This document shows, piece after piece, positions 9,852-59,494 of a stretch of 64,000 bases of DNA. The position numbers and the translations under genes are program-made. Origin of the DNA: Rhodothermales bacterium (GTDB taxonomy: Bacteria; Bacteroidota; Rhodothermia; Rhodothermales; UBA10348); NCBI GenBank assembly GCA_040221055.1, contig JAVJVN010000015.1, positions 62,001 to 126,000 on the forward strand. Direction: 5' to 3'. Below the pieces are notes generated by a model. That model ran no database searches, was not told the origin of the DNA, and saw nothing but the letters and a program-made list of their open reading frames with translations. The stretch's first letter is position 1. Every line of letters begins with the position of its first letter.

Positions 9852-9904
9852 TTGTAGTGTGAAGAGTCCGTAAAACGGTGAAGTCCGGTTGCCGGCATTC
9901 GATC

Positions 9905-9927
9905 CTGTTGTATATTACGGACAACAG
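9905..9927. promoter_or_regulatory. Perfect inverted repeat, candidate Rrf2/NsrR operator
   Basis: CTGTTGT, nine bases, then ACAACAG: two perfect 7-bp arms centred 33 bp before the ATG of the Rrf2-family gene. Length and symmetry suit a dimeric winged-helix regulator of the NsrR/IscR type. The AT-rich stretch just downstream (TATTATAA near 9938-9945) could be the -10 region, so binding here would block RNA polymerase. Autoregulation and control of the downstream nos genes is inferred, not shown. Confidence 0.6.
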
Positions 9928-9948
9928 AGTCGCTTATCTATTATAACC

Positions 9949-10380
9949 ATGCTGTCCAACGCCTGCCAATACGGACTCCGCGCCATGATCCATCTGGCCC
10001 AGCAACCGGAAGATGGATTCGTCCCGGTGCGTGAAATCAGCGCATCGCTGGACGTGTCGCACACGTTCCTGGCCAAGATCCTGCAGCAGCTGGTAGCCAA
10101 GGAACTGCTGGTGTCCTTGCGCGGACCGAGCGGCGGCGTACGGCTGGCCCATTCTGCAGACAAGATCCTGCTCAATGACATTGTCGTGGCCATCGACGGC
10201 CGGAAAGTACTTGAATCGTGTGTACTCGGTCTGCCCGGATGCGGCCACCAGGCGCCCTGCCCCATGCATGCCTCCTGGGCCGAAGTCCGGAACCGGTTCT
10301 GCAAGATGCTTGAGGAAACCAGCCTCCAGACGCTCGCCGCGAAGACCAAAGCCGCCGGATTCCGCCTGACCCCGCACTGA
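9949..10380 (+). CDS. Rrf2-family transcriptional regulator (NsrR-like)
   Basis: DNA-binding repressor/sensor of 143 residues. The winged helix spans about 1-70 (SNACQYGLRAMIHLA, then FLAKILQQLVAKELLVSLRGPSGG). Three cysteines, C91, C98 and C104, lie in the loop where NsrR and IscR bind an Fe-S cluster, so it probably senses NO or redox state through a cluster. Start set at ATG 9949; an upstream in-frame ATG would include the operator region. It lies 47 bp ahead of a cytochrome c and nosZ, so nos control is the likely role. NsrR against another Rrf2 subgroup cannot be settled from sequence alone. Confidence 0.85.
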   Translation: MLSNACQYGLRAMIHLAQQPEDGFVPVREISASLDVSHTFLAKILQQLVAKELLVSLRGPSGGVRLAHSADKILLNDIVVAIDGRKVLESCVLGLPGCGHQAPCPMHASWAEVRNRFCKMLEETSLQTLAAKTKAAGFRLTPH

Positions 10381-10427
10381 TGAACCCATTTCCATCCTCC
10401 TATTTCGGACTAAATACTCTTTACTCC

Positions 10428-10895
10428 ATGAAGAAGATACTTCACCCCATCATGGCCCTCCCGCTCCTGCTCGCCGTCCTCCTCCTCGGCGCCTGCGGAT
10501 CCGAAGGTGGCTCTGACAGCAGCGCCGACGGCAGCGCACCCACCGCCGAATCCGGCCTGACCGCCGTCCAACTTGAGCACGGTCTCGGGCCGATTGCTCC
10601 GTTCGATCTCGGCCCCATTGACGCCGCCCTGGCCGAGCGGGGCGCGGACATCTTCAAAATGAAGTGCACGTCGTGCCACAAGATGGAGGGTCGCTATGTG
10701 GGTCCTCCACTGGGCGACATCACCGAGACCCGGTCGCCGGCCTACGTCATGAACATGATCCTGAATCCCCAGGAGATGATCACGGCGCATCCCACGGCCA
10801 AGAAGGTATTCGCCGAATACCTCACACCCATGCCCAATCAAAGCCTGAGCGAAGACGATGCACGCGCCGTGCTCGAATACCTCCGGACGCAATAA
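10428..10895 (+). CDS. Lipoprotein c-type cytochrome of the nos locus
   Basis: Membrane-anchored monohaem cytochrome c, 155 residues. Signal peptide with lipobox LGAC (lipidated C23), a Gly/Ser-rich tether to about residue 55, haem motif CTSCH at 80-84, and a probable axial Met at M135 in LTPMPNQ. It precedes nosZ by 19 bp. Such cytochromes accompany clade II nos clusters and are thought to pass electrons from the quinol-oxidising chain to NosZ, replacing NosR. Start at ATG 10428 chosen because the signal peptide begins there. Confidence 0.88.
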   Translation: MKKILHPIMALPLLLAVLLLGACGSEGGSDSSADGSAPTAESGLTAVQLEHGLGPIAPFDLGPIDAALAERGADIFKMKCTSCHKMEGRYVGPPLGDITETRSPAYVMNMILNPQEMITAHPTAKKVFAEYLTPMPNQSLSEDDARAVLEYLRTQ

Positions 10896-10914
10896 CCAAC
10901 CCATCAGAAGCGCC

Positions 10915-12870
10915 ATGAAACGCATCTCCATCAATCGAATCATCGTCGGCGTGGCCGCCACCCTGCTCATTGGAGCCCTGGCCACGTCGTGCCGTACCGC
11001 CACCGACCAATCCGGCCACGCGGACGCCGCCCAGGCCGTCTATGTGCCCCCGGGCAGCTACGACGAATTCTACTCCTTCATGTCCGGCGGATTCTCCGGC
11101 CAGGTCACCGTCATGGGCCTGCCCTCGGGGCGGCTGCTGAAGACCATCCCCGTGTTTTCCCAGCACGCCGAAAATGGCTGGGGATACGACGAGGAAACCA
11201 AAGCCATGCTGAACACCTCGTACGGATTCGTTCCGTGGGACGATTCGCATCATCCGCAGCTCAGCCAGACGAACGGCGTGCCGGACGGACGGTGGCTGTT
11301 CATCAACGGCAACAACACGCCGCGAATTGCGCGCATCGACCTGAAATCTTTTGAAACGGCTGAGATCGTGGAGATTCCGCTCTCCGCGGGCAACCACGCC
11401 TCGCCTTTCATCACCGAGAACTCGGAATACGTGGTGGCCGCCACGCGCTTCAGCGTGCCTATCCCGCAGCGGGACATTTCGATTTCCGAGTACAAGGAGC
11501 AGTTCAAGGGCACGATTTCGTTCGTACGGGCCGACCGTCCCGGCGAAATGGAAGTCGCCTTCCAGATCATGGTGCCCGGCTATGACTACGACCTGTCCAC
11601 CGCCGGTACGGGTCCCTCGCACGGCTGGGCCTTCCTGTCCACCTACAACGTAGAGCAGGCCAATACGCTCAAGGAAGTCAACGCCAGCCAGCGCGACAAG
11701 GATTTCATTGCCGCCGTGAACTGGAAGCGCGCCGAAGAGTGCGTCGAGGCGGGCAACTTCGAGGAATGGGATGTGACCTACCTGCGCAACGTGAAGCCGC
11801 ACCAGGGTATAGCCACCACCACGACGCTCTCCGGCAGCAAGATGCTGCAGCCCGCCGACTGCGACGGCCTGGTCTACTTTCTGCCGACGCCCAAGTCGCC
11901 CCACGGCGTGGACGTGGATCCCACGGGTGAATTCATTGTGGGCGGTGGCAAGCTGGCCACCGTGCTTCCTGTGCACTCCTTCACGAAGATGCTCAAGGCC
12001 ATCGAGGACAAGGAATTCGAAGGCATGGCCGATGGCATCCCCGTGCTGAAGTACGATGCGATCATTGCCGGGGAAGTTGAGAATGCCGGCCTCGGCCCGC
12101 TCCACACCCAGTTCGACGGCCGCGGCTCGGCCTACACCACGGCCTTCCTGTCCTCGGAAATCGTGAAGTGGGACATCGAGACGTTCACCGTCGTGGACCG
12201 CATTCCGGTCTATTATTCGGTGGGCCACCTCATGATTCCGGGCGGTGACAGCCGCCAGCCGGCCGGAAAATACCTGGTCGCGCTGAACAAGATCACGAAG
12301 GACCGCTACCTCCCGACCGGACCGGAACTGGCCCACTCGGCGCAGCTCATTGACATCTCCGGCGACAAGATGAAGATGCTCCTGGACTTCCCGACCATGG
12401 GCGAGCCGCACTACGCGCAGGCCATTGCGGCGGACCTCGTGACGCCGGATCAGATCAAGATCTATCGCCTTGAAGAAAACGAGCACCCGTACGCGACACT
12501 CTCCGAGGCCGACGCCCGGGTGGTCCGTGAAGGCACCGACGTGCACGTCTACATGACTTCCATCCGGAGCCACTTTGCGCCGGACAACATCGAGGGCATC
12601 CGCGTGGGCGATACGGTGTACTTCCACGTCACCAACCTGGAACAGGACTGGGATGTGCCGCACGGATTCGCCATGCTCGGCGCCAACGCCAGCGAACTGC
12701 TCATCATGCCGGGCGACACCCGCACGCTGGTCTGGAAACCGACCGCCGTGGGCGTCTATCCGTTCTACTGCACGGACTTCTGCTCGGCGCTCCACCAGGA
12801 GATGCAGGGCTACATCCGCGTATCGGACGCCGGCTCCAACGTCCCGATTTCATTCCACACCGGAGGCTGA
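10915..12870 (+). CDS. nosZ: Nitrous-oxide reductase, clade II (Sec-exported)
   Basis: Periplasmic copper enzyme reducing N2O to N2, the last step of denitrification. 651 residues. The N-terminus is an ordinary Sec signal (RIIVGVAATLLIGALATSC) without twin arginines, the mark of clade II. The seven-bladed propeller carries the CuZ histidine motifs, for example DDSHHP, PSHGW, SPHGVDV and HTQFDGRG. The C-terminal cupredoxin domain carries the CuA site C619-x3-C623-x3-H627-x2-M630 (CTDFCSALHQEM). Neighbours are the cytochrome c upstream and NosL, NosD, NosF and NosY downstream. The ATSC at the signal end is a weak lipobox, so lipid anchoring is possible. Confidence 0.97.
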   Translation: MKRISINRIIVGVAATLLIGALATSCRTATDQSGHADAAQAVYVPPGSYDEFYSFMSGGFSGQVTVMGLPSGRLLKTIPVFSQHAENGWGYDEETKAMLNTSYGFVPWDDSHHPQLSQTNGVPDGRWLFINGNNTPRIARIDLKSFETAEIVEIPLSAGNHASPFITENSEYVVAATRFSVPIPQRDISISEYKEQFKGTISFVRADRPGEMEVAFQIMVPGYDYDLSTAGTGPSHGWAFLSTYNVEQANTLKEVNASQRDKDFIAAVNWKRAEECVEAGNFEEWDVTYLRNVKPHQGIATTTTLSGSKMLQPADCDGLVYFLPTPKSPHGVDVDPTGEFIVGGGKLATVLPVHSFTKMLKAIEDKEFEGMADGIPVLKYDAIIAGEVENAGLGPLHTQFDGRGSAYTTAFLSSEIVKWDIETFTVVDRIPVYYSVGHLMIPGGDSRQPAGKYLVALNKITKDRYLPTGPELAHSAQLIDISGDKMKMLLDFPTMGEPHYAQAIAADLVTPDQIKIYRLEENEHPYATLSEADARVVREGTDVHVYMTSIRSHFAPDNIEGIRVGDTVYFHVTNLEQDWDVPHGFAMLGANASELLIMPGDTRTLVWKPTAVGVYPFYCTDFCSALHQEMQGYIRVSDAGSNVPISFHTGG

Positions 12871-12873
12871 GTC

Positions 12874-13947
12874 ATGACCACCCGCAGTCGACTCCTGACG
12901 GCCCTCGCAGGCCTCATGCTCATCACCATGTATTTCTTCCCCCTGTGGAGGATTACGCTCGAAGCACCGCAGTACCCCGAAGGCCTCGGCCTCAGGATCA
13001 TGCTGTCGGATGTCCGGGGAGTGAACGAGTTCGACCTGCAGAACATCAACAACCTGAACCACTACATCGGCATGCAGCGGATTGAACCGGATGCCATTCC
13101 GGAGCTCAAGATCATGCCGTGGGCCATTGCCTTCCTGATTGCCGGCGCCTTCGGCGTCGCGCTCCTGGGGCGGCGGCGCTGGCTCACGACCTGGGTCGTG
13201 CTGTTCGGCCTGCTGTCGCTGGTCGGCCTGGTGGATTTCTGGTTGTGGGAGTACGACTACGGGCACAACCTGGACACGTCGACGGCCGCCATCGTGGTGC
13301 CCGGCATGTCCTACCAGCCGCCCCTCATTGGATCGAAGCAACTGCTCAACTTCAAAGCCCACTCCTGGCCGGGAGTGGGCGGTTGGGCGGCCTTCGCTGC
13401 ATTGGGGCTTGGCATGGTGGCGTGGGGGCTCGATCGGCCGAAGCGCCGCCGGAAATTCAGCGCCAAACCGTCCGCCGGTGCGGCCCTCGGCGCCCTGGCC
13501 CTGCCCCTGCTCCTCGTGGCCGGCTGCACGCCGGAACCCGAGCCCTTCCATCTCGGCCAGGACGAGGGTGCCTACTGCCGGATGACCATTGACGATGCCC
13601 GGTTCGCCTCGCAGATCGTCATGAAAACCGGACGGGTATACAAATTCGACTCCATCGAATGCCTGTCCCGCTACCTGGCCGAACAGGTCCAGGATGAAAC
13701 CGACGTGCATTCCGTCTGGGTGTCCGACGCCGCCGAGCCCGGCCAGCTGGTGAACGTCACCGAGGCCGTCTTCGTGCAGCACGAACGACTCCGCTCGCCC
13801 ATGGGCGGGGGATGGGCCGCGTTCGCATCGGTGGCCTCGGCGCAGGAAACCGTCCCGGACATCGATCCCGACGCGGACGTGCACACCTGGTTGTCCATGC
13901 GCCGCGTGAGCCACGCATCACTCGGAACGAGACCGTCGGGTATGTAA
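12874..13947 (+). CDS. Fusion of a nos-cluster multi-pass membrane protein with NosL copper chaperone
   Basis: 357-residue protein in the nosL position, 3 bp after nosZ. Residues 1-185 hold four predicted TM helices (about 7-25, 80-99, 104-125, 166-186) separated by a large loop, then a basic stretch KRRRK. Residues 201-218 look like a complete lipoprotein signal (GALALPLLLVAGC), followed by NosL with the Cu(I) motif YCRM (C235, M237) and a second cysteine C263. NosL supplies copper to the CuZ site of NosZ. NosL is normally a free lipoprotein; here its signal sits in frame inside a longer protein with no stop. An internal start could also yield separate NosL. Confidence 0.82.
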   Translation: MTTRSRLLTALAGLMLITMYFFPLWRITLEAPQYPEGLGLRIMLSDVRGVNEFDLQNINNLNHYIGMQRIEPDAIPELKIMPWAIAFLIAGAFGVALLGRRRWLTTWVVLFGLLSLVGLVDFWLWEYDYGHNLDTSTAAIVVPGMSYQPPLIGSKQLLNFKAHSWPGVGGWAAFAALGLGMVAWGLDRPKRRRKFSAKPSAGAALGALALPLLLVAGCTPEPEPFHLGQDEGAYCRMTIDDARFASQIVMKTGRVYKFDSIECLSRYLAEQVQDETDVHSVWVSDAAEPGQLVNVTEAVFVQHERLRSPMGGGWAAFASVASAQETVPDIDPDADVHTWLSMRRVSHASLGTRPSGM

Positions 13948-13949
13948 TC

Positions 13950-15167
13950 ATGTTTGTACGGGTGATGCTCTTCGTGGCGCTGGCCTTCGCCGCCGCGCCG
14001 GCCATGCCCGCCCCGGCCCAATCGCTCGCCGAGCGCCTGGAACGCGCCGCGCCCTACGATACGCTCCGCATTCCCGCCGGGACCTGGACCGAGACCACGC
14101 TCCACATCCGGAAGCCGGTCGTACTCGTGGGCGAGCCGGGAGCCCGGCTGAAAGGCGACGGATCGCACGAGTTGATCGTGATCCTGAGCGACGACGTGAC
14201 CATCCAGGGGCTGGACCTGTCCGGCGTCGGTCGGACGTTCATGGAAGACCGGGCGGCCATCCGCGTGCAGGATGCATCGCGCTGCCGGATAGCCGACAAT
14301 ACCTTCAGCGATGTGTTTTTCGGCGTGTACATGGCCCGGGCGGCCGACTGCACGGTGTCGGGCAACACGCTGAGCGCCAATTTCGAGCGCGAAACCACAG
14401 GCGGCAACGCCATCCATTCGTGGTACAGCAACCGGCTGCATATCGTAGATAATGTCATTACCGGATTCCGGGACGGCATCTACCTCGAGTTCACGAACGA
14501 TTCGGAGGTGGCCGGCAACCGCTCGGACCACAACCTGCGGTACGGATTGCATTTCATGTTCTCGGACCGCTGCAGCTACGACCGCAATTCGTTCTCGGAC
14601 AACAGGGCCGGTGTGGCGGTCATGTACGCCGACGGGTTGTCCATGCGGGACAACACGTTCCAGCGGGCCTGGGGATCATCGGCCTACGGCCTCCTGCTCA
14701 AGGAAATCCGGCGGGGCGAAATCCTGGGCAACACGTTCCAGGGCAATTCCGTGGGCATCCTCATGGAATCGACCGATGCCATGGATTTCCACGGCAACCA
14801 GTTCCTCGAAAACGGTTGGGCCATCAAGATGATGGCGAGCTCCATCGGCAACACCTTTGAAGACAACGTCTTTGCCGGTAATACCTTCGACATCGCCACG
14901 AACAGCCGCTCGTCCACCAGTCGCTTCACGGCCAATTACTGGGACCGCTACACGGGCTACGACCTGGACCGCGACGGCTTCGGCGACGTCCCCTTCCGGC
15001 CCGTTTCGCTCTTTTCCGTACTCGCCGAGCGACACGAGGCCATGCTCTACCTGTACCGCAGCGTCCTCGTGGATCTGCTCAACACGGCCGAAAGCCTGCT
15101 CCCGGTGCTCACGCCCGTTGACCTGGCCGACCACCGTCCGCGCATGGTGCTACCAACAACAAGATGA
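13950..15167 (+). CDS. nosD: NosD, periplasmic NosZ maturation protein
   Basis: Periplasmic right-handed beta-helix protein required with NosFY for CuZ site assembly. 405 residues with a signal peptide (LFVALAFAAAPAMPAPAQS) and many parallel beta-helix coils of the CASH/NosD type (for example NRLHIVDNVITGFRDGIYLE and YGLLLKEIRRGEILGNTFQG), ending after the conserved NYWDRYTGYDLDRDGFGDVPF. Start at ATG 13950, two bases after the NosL stop; the longer upstream reading frame lies inside the NosL gene. The stop overlaps the nosF start (ATGA). Confidence 0.93.
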   Translation: MFVRVMLFVALAFAAAPAMPAPAQSLAERLERAAPYDTLRIPAGTWTETTLHIRKPVVLVGEPGARLKGDGSHELIVILSDDVTIQGLDLSGVGRTFMEDRAAIRVQDASRCRIADNTFSDVFFGVYMARAADCTVSGNTLSANFERETTGGNAIHSWYSNRLHIVDNVITGFRDGIYLEFTNDSEVAGNRSDHNLRYGLHFMFSDRCSYDRNSFSDNRAGVAVMYADGLSMRDNTFQRAWGSSAYGLLLKEIRRGEILGNTFQGNSVGILMESTDAMDFHGNQFLENGWAIKMMASSIGNTFEDNVFAGNTFDIATNSRSSTSRFTANYWDRYTGYDLDRDGFGDVPFRPVSLFSVLAERHEAMLYLYRSVLVDLLNTAESLLPVLTPVDLADHRPRMVLPTTR

Positions 15168-15901
15168 AACTCCTTCCACACGATACGCCGCCCATCTCCA
15201 TCAGCGGGCTCATGAAATCCTTCGGCACGAACCAGGTGCTGGCGGGCATTGACCTCACGTTCGGTGCGGGTGAAACCACCGCCATCGTCGGTCCGAACGG
15301 CGCCGGGAAAACGACGCTCATCAAGAGCCTGCTGGGGCTCGTCCACCCGGATGCCGGTGTCCTGGAAGTCGGAGGCCTGCCAGCCGGGTCGGACGGCGAC
15401 TACCGCCGACTCATCGGATACATGCCGCAAAGTGCCCGTTTCCCCGACGGGATGTCGGCGCGCGACATGATTGCACTCGTCCGCCGCCTGCGTGACCCGA
15501 AGACACCCATCGATACCTCGCTCATCCGCACCCTCGGGCTTTCCGGCGAAATGGACAAGCCCTTCCGGACCCTGTCGGGCGGAACGCGGCAGAAAGTATC
15601 GGCGGTCCTCGCGTTCATGTACACGCCGCCCATCTATATCCTGGACGAGCCTACGGCCGGTCTGGACCCCGTGTCCAGCGCGGCCCTGAAGGACCACATC
15701 CTCGCGGTCCGCGAACGCGGGGCCACCGTGCTCCTGACGTCGCATGTCATGGCCGACCTCGAAGAGCTCTGCGATCGCATTGTCTTCCTTTTGGACGGAC
15801 GCGTCCGCTTCGACGGATCGTTGTCGGATTTGCGCGCCCGCACCGGCCAACCCCGGCTCGAACGCGCCATTGCCCGCATCCTGGAGGGAGAAGCCGCATG
15901 A
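15164..15901 (+). CDS. nosF: NosF, ABC transporter ATPase for NosZ maturation
   Basis: Cytoplasmic ATPase of the NosDFY complex. 245 residues with Walker A GPNGAGKTT, signature LSGGTRQK and Walker B YILDEPTAGLDP, followed by the switch His in LTSHVM. Starts inside the nosD stop and its own stop overlaps nosY, so D, F and Y should be made in fixed ratio. The complex is thought to export a sulfur species or remodel NosZ for CuZ formation; the substrate is a family-level inference. Confidence 0.93.
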   Translation: MKLLPHDTPPISISGLMKSFGTNQVLAGIDLTFGAGETTAIVGPNGAGKTTLIKSLLGLVHPDAGVLEVGGLPAGSDGDYRRLIGYMPQSARFPDGMSARDMIALVRRLRDPKTPIDTSLIRTLGLSGEMDKPFRTLSGGTRQKVSAVLAFMYTPPIYILDEPTAGLDPVSSAALKDHILAVRERGATVLLTSHVMADLEELCDRIVFLLDGRVRFDGSLSDLRARTGQPRLERAIARILEGEAA

Positions 15902-16689
15902 ACACCGTCCAAACCATCTTCCGCTTCCAGGTCGGCGATGCACTCCGCAGCCGCTGGCTCATCCTGCACTTCCTGCTGTTCCTGTTGCTGACCGAAGGGC
16001 TGCTGCTGGCCTCCGGCTTCTCCGACAAGGCCCTTGTCAGCCTCATCAATGTGGTCCTGCTGCTGGTCCCCCTCATCAGTCTCGTGTTCGGGGTCATCCA
16101 CCAGTACAACGCCCGCGAATTCGTGGAGCTGCTGCTGACCCAACCGGTGCGTCGCCGCGACCTGTTTGCCGGCCTGCTGGCGGGAATAGGCGTGCCCATG
16201 ACGCTGTCGTTCGTCCTCGGGATATTCCTTCCGTTCGCCTGGCACGGCGGACTCGACCCGGTGCAGGGCTCGCGGTTGTTCGCGCTGCTCGGACTCGGAT
16301 CCGTGCTCACGTTGACCTGCATTTCGGTCGCCGTAGCCGTCTCCATCCGGCAGACGGATCGCATCCGCGGCATTGGCCTCGCGCTGTTCCTGTGGCTGGC
16401 CTACGCCGTGCTGTTCGACGGCGCCATCATGCTGAGCGTCGTGCTGCTGGACCACTGGCCCATCGAGAAGGCCATGATCGTGGTAATGCTCATGAACCCC
16501 GTCGACATCATCCGCCTGGTCCTGCTGCAGGTGTTCGATGCCGCCGCCATGATGGGCTACACCGGCGCCGTGTTCACCCGATTCTTCGAAGATGGCATGG
16601 GATACGCCGTGGCCGCGACCGCCCTCTCGTTCTGGCTCATCCTGCCCACCTGGCTGGCCCGCCACGCATTCCTGCGGAAAGATTTCTGA
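15898..16689 (+). CDS. nosY: NosY, ABC transporter permease for NosZ maturation
   Basis: Integral membrane partner of NosF, 263 residues with about six TM helices (for example LILHFLLFLLLTEGLLLASGF, VVLLLVPLISLVFGVI and GIGLALFLWLAYAVLF). The second cytoplasmic stretch carries the conserved REFVELLLTQPVRRRDLFAG segment of the NosY/ABC-2 family. Last gene of the nos operon; the 215-bp repeat element follows 13 bp later. Confidence 0.92.
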   Translation: MNTVQTIFRFQVGDALRSRWLILHFLLFLLLTEGLLLASGFSDKALVSLINVVLLLVPLISLVFGVIHQYNAREFVELLLTQPVRRRDLFAGLLAGIGVPMTLSFVLGIFLPFAWHGGLDPVQGSRLFALLGLGSVLTLTCISVAVAVSIRQTDRIRGIGLALFLWLAYAVLFDGAIMLSVVLLDHWPIEKAMIVVMLMNPVDIIRLVLLQVFDAAAMMGYTGAVFTRFFEDGMGYAVAATALSFWLILPTWLARHAFLRKDF

Positions 16690-58927: not shown

Positions 58928-58948
58928 TTCATTGACCGCGTTTGAGAT

Positions 58949-59494
58949 TTAGGATAACTGATTACTAAGGAGCAACTTTGGCACTGTTGCTTTCACCATC
59001 AACTTCTTCAGTGTATCCACATTTTGATTAGCAACTAACTTCCAAACGTCATCTTCTTCGTCAACGAGACTACCGGTCACCAGTACTTGTATTAATCCAT
59101 TTTCCTGTATGGTTGTCACGAATCCATACCCAATTAGCCGTTCAAAATCATTTTCCTTCATGAAAACAGAAATGAGCGATTCGTGACCAAAAAGCTCAGA
59201 TCTTTCCAGCAACAATCCGGCGACTGCCGTTTGCTGATGAGAAGAGGGAGCAAAAGAGGCTTTTACCTTTGGCAAACCGCTTCTGGCTTTAGAAAAAGCT
59301 CGACTGGACAAATTGATGAAGATCATCAGCATCACGACGACGATCAGCACCGACGGGACTACCCACTTCAGTCCAACTTTGACGTCAGACAGGCCAAACC
59401 ATGTTCCGAGTGCAATCACAAGCGAAACCAACGAAAACGATGGTCCATGGGACTGTCTAAAAGATTCTGCTATTTCGGCCCAGTAGCCTTTCAT
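58949..59494 (-). CDS. Cassette 3 gene a: unknown membrane protein
   Basis: 181 residues. Two predicted TM helices close to the N-terminus (SFSLVSLVIALGTWFGL and WVVPSVLIVVVMLMIFINL), a short basic linker, then a soluble domain LLLERSELFGHESLISVFMKENDFERLIGYGFVTTIQENGLIQVLVTGSL. No family recognised. With the next gene it forms the two-gene content of one cassette, which hints that the two products act together. Confidence 0.6.
   Translation of the reverse strand: MKGYWAEIAESFRQSHGPSFSLVSLVIALGTWFGLSDVKVGLKWVVPSVLIVVVMLMIFINLSSRAFSKARSGLPKVKASFAPSSHQQTAVAGLLLERSELFGHESLISVFMKENDFERLIGYGFVTTIQENGLIQVLVTGSLVDEEDDVWKLVANQNVDTLKKLMVKATVPKLLLSNQLS

Follow-up and report, generated by a model that had tools for sequence, protein, structure and literature searches.

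Bacteria that carry clade II nosZ are a main sink of N2O, and the triggers of their nos genes are poorly known. Scaffolds with clade II nos genes have been described as "enriched" in Rrf2 regulators (PMC6264515), and Rrf2 control has been proposed for the nos operon of Melioribacter roseus (PMC3534657). NsrR represses RIC in several proteobacteria (PMC9268430), and in a Magnetospirillum it binds a nosZ promoter, from which it is released by an NO donor (PMC11014258). For NsrR-Th, control over nir and nor genes and a gel shift with DNA have been described (PMC5748679). The cluster ligands include Asp8 in ScNsrR and His107 in IscR (PMC5411485).

Gene order and the Rrf2 protein

The locus described here lies in the window, i.e. 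the whole 64-kb stretch of DNA that was analysed, and comprises the following genes:

9949..10380, + strand: rrf2 regulator gene, 143 aa, ATG at 9949
10428..10895, + strand: cytochrome c, lipoprotein-like, opening the nos run (PF00034, 45.4 bits)
10858..12870, + strand: clade II nosZ, open frame with the true start probably at ~10915 (TIGR04246, 937.5 against a cut-off of 625)
12874..13947, + strand: NosL-like protein (PF05573, 40.4 bits, residues 229-325)
13896..15167, + strand: nosD (TIGR04247, 400.7 against a cut-off of 300)
15164-15901, + strand: nosF (ABC ATPase matches)
15898-16689, + strand: nosY-like permease, named from its position only, without a family match

According to the TIGR04246 profile, nosZ is of the clade II, Sec type. 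Sequence and profile searches agree with the original prediction that an Rrf2 gene with C91, C98 and C104 heads a cytochrome c-nosZ run.

The encoded protein belongs to the Rrf2 superfamily by both PF02082 (110.3 bits, cut-off 30) and TIGR00738 (106.2, cut-off 73.3), and its AlphaFold model (16 sequences, pLDDT 86) has the Rrf2 fold, being closer to CymR, RsrR and IscR than to NsrR. Its ligand set is C91-x6-C98-x5-C104-P-M-H107, plus C6, with the three Cys of the set in the C-terminal half. The residues C91, C98, C104, P103, P105 and H107 are invariant in 23/23 homologues, C6 nearly so, and the pattern C-x6-C-x5-C-P-x-H was present in 54/60, its relaxed form C-x5-7-C-x5-C-x2-H in 60/60; protein family and ligand set are thus established by comparison. 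The only other Rrf2 protein of the genome is without the cysteines. In the alignment, H107 is matched with His107 of E. coli IscR, and the column of the NsrR Asp8, which is Asp in E. coli NsrR, holds Gln7 here. None of the more specific models reached its cut-off with the window protein: the NCBIfam model of NsrR gave 60 bits (cut-off 182), those of IscR 77.7 (cut-off 207.55) and 62.8 (cut-off 275), and CymR and RirA likewise remained below. Since all 23 homologues match the IscR, NsrR, CymR and RirA models at E<=0.001, no family is singled out. An identity with NsrR, which the original prediction brought in, is not supported, in view of the NsrR score, the Gln at the Asp8 position and the IscR-type His instead. 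By the sequence criteria applied, the protein is neither NsrR nor IscR; most likely it is a cluster-bearing repressor.

Elements upstream of rrf2

The region upstream of rrf2 and the gap behind it contain the following elements, of which the inverted repeats are given without a strand:

9859..9874, + strand: conserved upstream element GTGAAGAGTCCGTAAA, from the alignment of the rrf2 promoters of family relatives
9888..9916, + strand: promoter-like elements of rrf2, GTTGCC (9888-9893) and TATATT (9911-9916), conserved in an alignment of 8 promoters
9905..9927: perfect 7-9-7 inverted repeat CTGTTGT-N9-ACAACAG, 0 mismatches, judged coincidental
9915..9936: predicted operator O1, TTACGGACAACAGAGTCGCTTA, a weak copy of TTTAAGAC-N6-GTCTTAAA before rrf2, from the matrix scan
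10403..10424: predicted operator O2, TTTCGGACTAAATACTCTTTAC, a strong copy in the gap from the rrf2 stop to the ATG of cytochrome c

The perfect repeat had been proposed as the operator of the Rrf2 protein. It exists as described, directly 5' of the gene, and ends 21 bp ahead of the ATG at 9949. Its frequency is that of chance: the window contains 4 perfect 7-9-7 repeats, as opposed to ~3.9 expected at 4^-7 per position, and among random 110-bp pieces of the window a perfect repeat with 7-bp arms occurs in 0.5% at a 9-bp gap and in 5.6% at any gap of 5-12 bp. The search of the genome for the 23-bp pattern, as suggested with the original prediction, revealed no second perfect copy, and copies with <=3 mismatches (100 per strand) were fewer than in the reversed-pattern control (180). 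Among 83 upstream regions of rrf2-like genes, in which some genomes are represented twice, the repeat is present in that of the window only; the next best region has 3 mismatches, and 81/83 have >=4. A palindrome search with free gap length in the promoters of relatives gave scattered matches only, several of the loci being on the wrong strand.

It is highly improbable that the repeat is a genuine species-specific operator. Its arms match exactly, its centre lies near the -10-like box and O1, in the operator register, is degenerate in this genome, all of which would suit such a role. Against these stand the chance-level frequency, the lack of the repeat in the other 82 upstream regions and elsewhere in the genome, and the right arm, which is conserved only within its overlap with the operator shared by the relatives. 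The original prediction had itself named absence from the orthologous promoters of relatives as the finding that would speak against it, and since the palindrome is missing there, it is by this criterion refuted as the operator: the repeat is real, and almost certainly not the operator.

The alignment of the window promoter with those of 7 family relatives contains four conserved blocks, namely GTGAAGAG-N3-GTAAA, GTTGCC, a TATATT-like block and AGGACAA-N3-AGTCTTAATTC, the last of which is a 22-bp near-palindrome. GTTGCC and TATATT, read by eye, may form the rrf2 promoter. The first block (9859-9874) lies ~90 bp 5' of rrf2 and is the sole exact copy in the genome. It is kept in the rrf2 promoters of family relatives, even where no nos genes adjoin (L023, L025), and the conservation of the element, written as GTGAAGAG-N3-GTMAA, is genuine. 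The element common to the relatives at the operator position is TTTAAGAC-N6-GTCTTAAA, ~10 bp downstream of the first-noted repeat, and the consensus from 25 sites is TTTAAGACAAAANAGTCTTAAA.

The shared operator motif and its predicted targets

In the window (64 kb, both strands), O2 is the top position with a score of 22.4 and a shuffle p of 0.002. This site, which is absent from the original prediction, is separated by 3 bp from the start of the cytochrome c-nosZ run. It is the sole match with 0 mismatches to the degenerate pattern across the 3.3-Mb genome. O1 overlaps the right half of the first-noted repeat and the -10-like TATATT (9911-9916), and it is aligned with the conserved element in the 7 family relatives. 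The unsymmetrised matrix places it second in the window (13.0), the symmetrised one third (6.5 bits). Its shuffle p is 0.022, and this value, together with the symmetrised rank and score, makes the autoregulatory copy a weak one in this genome. A further site at 58948-58969, which ranks third with one matrix and second with the other, was taken as chance, since its location is the 3' end of an open frame.

The motif was evaluated with a symmetrised matrix built on the 7 family sites, with the window excluded. This held-out matrix found a site at p<0.01 in 30/60 upstream regions of rrf2-like genes, with relatedness ranging from family to phylum (L049 and L050, which are among the 60, contain training sites), and 5.2% of 560 random pieces reached p<0.05 in the control. 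With the 25-site matrix, 21/576 random 200-mers reached p<0.01, a figure that is an upper bound, because the pieces were drawn from operator-bearing loci. Sites at p<0.01 are present in 55/83 upstream regions of rrf2-like genes, training sites included, and in 33/82 downstream regions. The arrangement of the window recurs in the nos-linked loci, where a site at p<=0.01 was predicted before rrf2 in 18/20 and within 250 bp past the rrf2 stop in 19/20, although in four of these (L028, L090-L092) the stretch past the stop leads to a second rrf2. Operator, position and conservation are thus established by comparison. Tandem rrf2 copies precede the nos run in L028, L090, L091 and L092; in L090-L092 the operator of the second copy lies only ~28 bp before its start, and no site was found 3' of the second copy (3/3 tested).

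The degenerate pattern with <=2 mismatches returned 87 rows in the genome and is not enriched (41/46 compared with 65/59 in the control); as a regulon finder it gives mostly noise and became useful only after all 87 rows had been scored with the matrix. The top three distinct sites, all outside the motif training set, then precede cytochrome c-nosZ, a RIC gene (YtfE-type; TIGR03652, 216.8 against a cut-off of 204.7) and a predicted eNOR operon, with a drop in score from 21.7 to 14.6 at the next distinct site. These are the genome-wide targets found by comparison. A sequence-only model built on the 25 sites gave one match in the genome at the threshold of E<=10, located at C11:166052, 20 bp before the RIC gene; O1, O2 and the eNOR site were not reported by it at this threshold. 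Two further loci of the same genome are relevant here:

L161:5489-7738: predicted eNOR (subunit II + I), on another contig; family models identify it only as cytochrome oxidase-like
L227 (G000:C14:304342-305226): nirK, 366.6 against a cut-off of 296.3

The third of the top sites, at C1:29254, precedes a cupredoxin subunit II, followed by a heme-copper subunit I. A Gln at the position of the active-site Tyr is the mark of eNOR (PMC8756737). When aligned to ba3 oxidase, subunit I carries Gln at the position of the cross-linked Tyr, and with the cupredoxin subunit II upstream the operon has both features of an eNOR. The motif GH-x2-QQ is also present in 9 loci of relatives (L187, L188, L189, L190, L195 and L191-L194). 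The genome's own nirK was considered as a target and rejected, as the operator is absent from it.

In the relatives, RIC promoters have a site at p<=0.01 in 14/20 rows and no clear site in 6/20 (22 rows were found, the fragments L183 and L184 left out; G002 counts twice and the own genome is included). For eNOR promoters, the site is present at p<0.01 in 8/10 rows, 219-236 bp ahead of subunit II, with no clear site in 2/10 (11 were found, the duplicate L196 left out; the own genome is included). The sequence model over 46 genomes returned 43 rows with 40 distinct sites, sorted by coordinates: 17 rrf2/nos sites, which partly overlap the training set, 6 at RIC, 2 at nirK and 1 at eNOR, together with 1 next to a MauG-like gene, 2 ahead of porin-like genes and 11 unassigned. 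The two nirK genes concerned score above the TIGR02376 cut-off. In the loci L197 and L213 of two order-level relatives the site precedes a beta-barrel/porin-like gene, one of them being the best match of the whole scan.

Since the binding of the Rrf2 protein is a prediction and the motif also occurs at genes unlinked to rrf2, the operator could be genuine and yet be bound by a different factor. We regard this as very unlikely, because the motif tracks the promoters of this Rrf2 family itself across the phylum sample, as would be expected of an autoregulator, and because the RIC locus of a genome without an Rrf2 match (L172, G004) has a weak site only (6.4, p=0.023, n=1). We infer instead that the Rrf2 protein of the window would bind the operator, act as a repressor and hold a cluster, with NO as the signal.

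The signal and comparison with known systems

O1 and O2 overlap -10-like boxes, so that binding would be expected to block initiation. The operator before the nosZ run, an NO reductase and a gene for the repair of NO damage suggests that NO may switch on N2O removal. Judged by their functions in reducing NO, mending clusters and reducing N2O, the predicted targets would indicate NO as the signal. This reading is backed by the repression of RIC by NsrR (PMC9268430) and by the Magnetospirillum NsrR at the nosZ promoter (PMC11014258). In the proposed mechanism, the Fe-S Rrf2 repressor would sit on the 22-bp near-palindrome where transcription starts for rrf2 and for the cytochrome c-nosZ genes, and would also occupy the sites before the RIC repair gene and the eNOR-type NO reductase operon. 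NO would attack the Fe-S cluster, whereupon the repressor would leave the DNA, with joint induction of the genes that reduce NO, repair clusters and reduce N2O. The best reading of the sequence data is a Bacteroidota/Rhodothermales Rrf2 repressor with an NsrR-like working, in which NO would derepress nos, eNOR and RIC.

The gene contexts of the homologues bear on the nature of the signal. Among 81 loci surveyed by tblastn, many with flanks of just 1.5 kb, 21 contain nos, 11 nor, 8 RIC, 7 cbb3 and 2 nirK genes (the classes overlap), 7 a cytochrome c alone and 29 none of the genes sought. Flavobacteriia homologues adjoin nor genes, and the Flavobacteriia-type locus L053 encodes a true NorB (383 bits to 3o0r). 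In L106, L107, L108, L110, L112 and L116, rrf2 homologues are located directly 5' of a CcoI-type copper ATPase and a fused CcoNO cbb3 oxidase, and several of these loci carry a predicted operator. Because some homologues stand by cbb3 oxidase genes or, in 29/81, by none of the genes sought, the signal could also be oxygen or the redox state.

The same repressor and operator might therefore respond to oxygen, iron or the Fe-S supply, as an IscR-like [2Fe-2S] sensor for which NO is one cluster-breaker among several. The ligand set is of the C3H type of IscR, with His107 as an IscR ligand (PMC5411485), and both IscR models score higher than the NsrR model; together with the homologues adjoining CcoI-CcoN cbb3 genes, this makes oxygen or iron a reasonable rival, and nos, eNOR and RIC would all be compatible with microaerobic life. 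We nevertheless consider it unlikely, as the recurrent targets RIC, NO reductase and nirK are the classical NO set and none of the top-scoring sites is at isc/suf genes. That an Fe-S Rrf2 repressor acts on TTTAAGAC-N6-GTCTTAAA, is relieved by NO and controls its own gene, nos, eNOR and RIC is, in our judgement, probable. NO control by a locally encoded Rrf2 protein, as originally predicted, thus retains its support in the predicted operators at rrf2, nosZ, RIC and NO reductase, with NO as the presumed signal, but the operator first named and an identity with NsrR are not supported.

In a wider sense, and only tentatively, a phylum-wide Rrf2 subfamily with the IscR-type C3H set and a conserved N-terminal Cys may be the Bacteroidota counterpart of NsrR, with a single operator that would couple NO to N2O reduction, eNOR/cNOR and RIC, and in some lineages to nirK and cbb3 oxidase; NO, and not N2O, would then be the cue for N2O consumption by clade II bacteria. 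If this is true, an NsrR-like role is carried out with IscR-type ligands. For a test of the concrete operator and the predicted regulon of four promoters, a single protein preparation and four short probes would suffice; the operator also provides an annotation rule for similar genomes.

Published clade II nos clusters resemble the locus in having rrf2 adjoining cytochrome c and nosZ and differ in that, in the parts of the sources considered, they come without an analysis of operator, regulon or ligands (PMC6264515, PMC3534657). The description of NO control of clade II nos genes as little studied is fair, although Rrf2 beside such genes has already been published; in the openly licensed literature, outside which most subscription papers and preprints lie, neither operator nor regulon was found in print.

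NsrR-Th from Thermus thermophilus is likewise a BadM/Rrf2 protein outside the proteobacteria, whereas its operator is CTTGACC-NN-GGTCATGG, it serves as activator as well as repressor, and a link to nosZ is not described in the portion of the article considered (PMC5748679).

With NsrR of proteobacteria, Bacillus and Streptomyces, the window protein shares the Rrf2 fold, the three Cys and, as a prediction, autoregulation and a small regulon that includes genes linked to NO (RIC, NO reductase, nirK); the predicted RIC and eNOR sites correspond to an NsrR-type regulon of NO detoxification genes. It differs in falling far under the NsrR model cut-off, in being without the Asp8 ligand, and in the operator, as the NsrR consensus gATGyAT-N5-ATrCATc (PMC1274295) is unlike the element found here when the consensus sequences are compared. 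E. coli IscR, which in sequence is one of the nearest relatives of solved structure, has the same C3H ligand set with His in the same column. However, the Cys spacing is x5 in IscR and x6 here, both IscR cut-offs are missed, and the predicted targets of the window protein are N-oxide genes.
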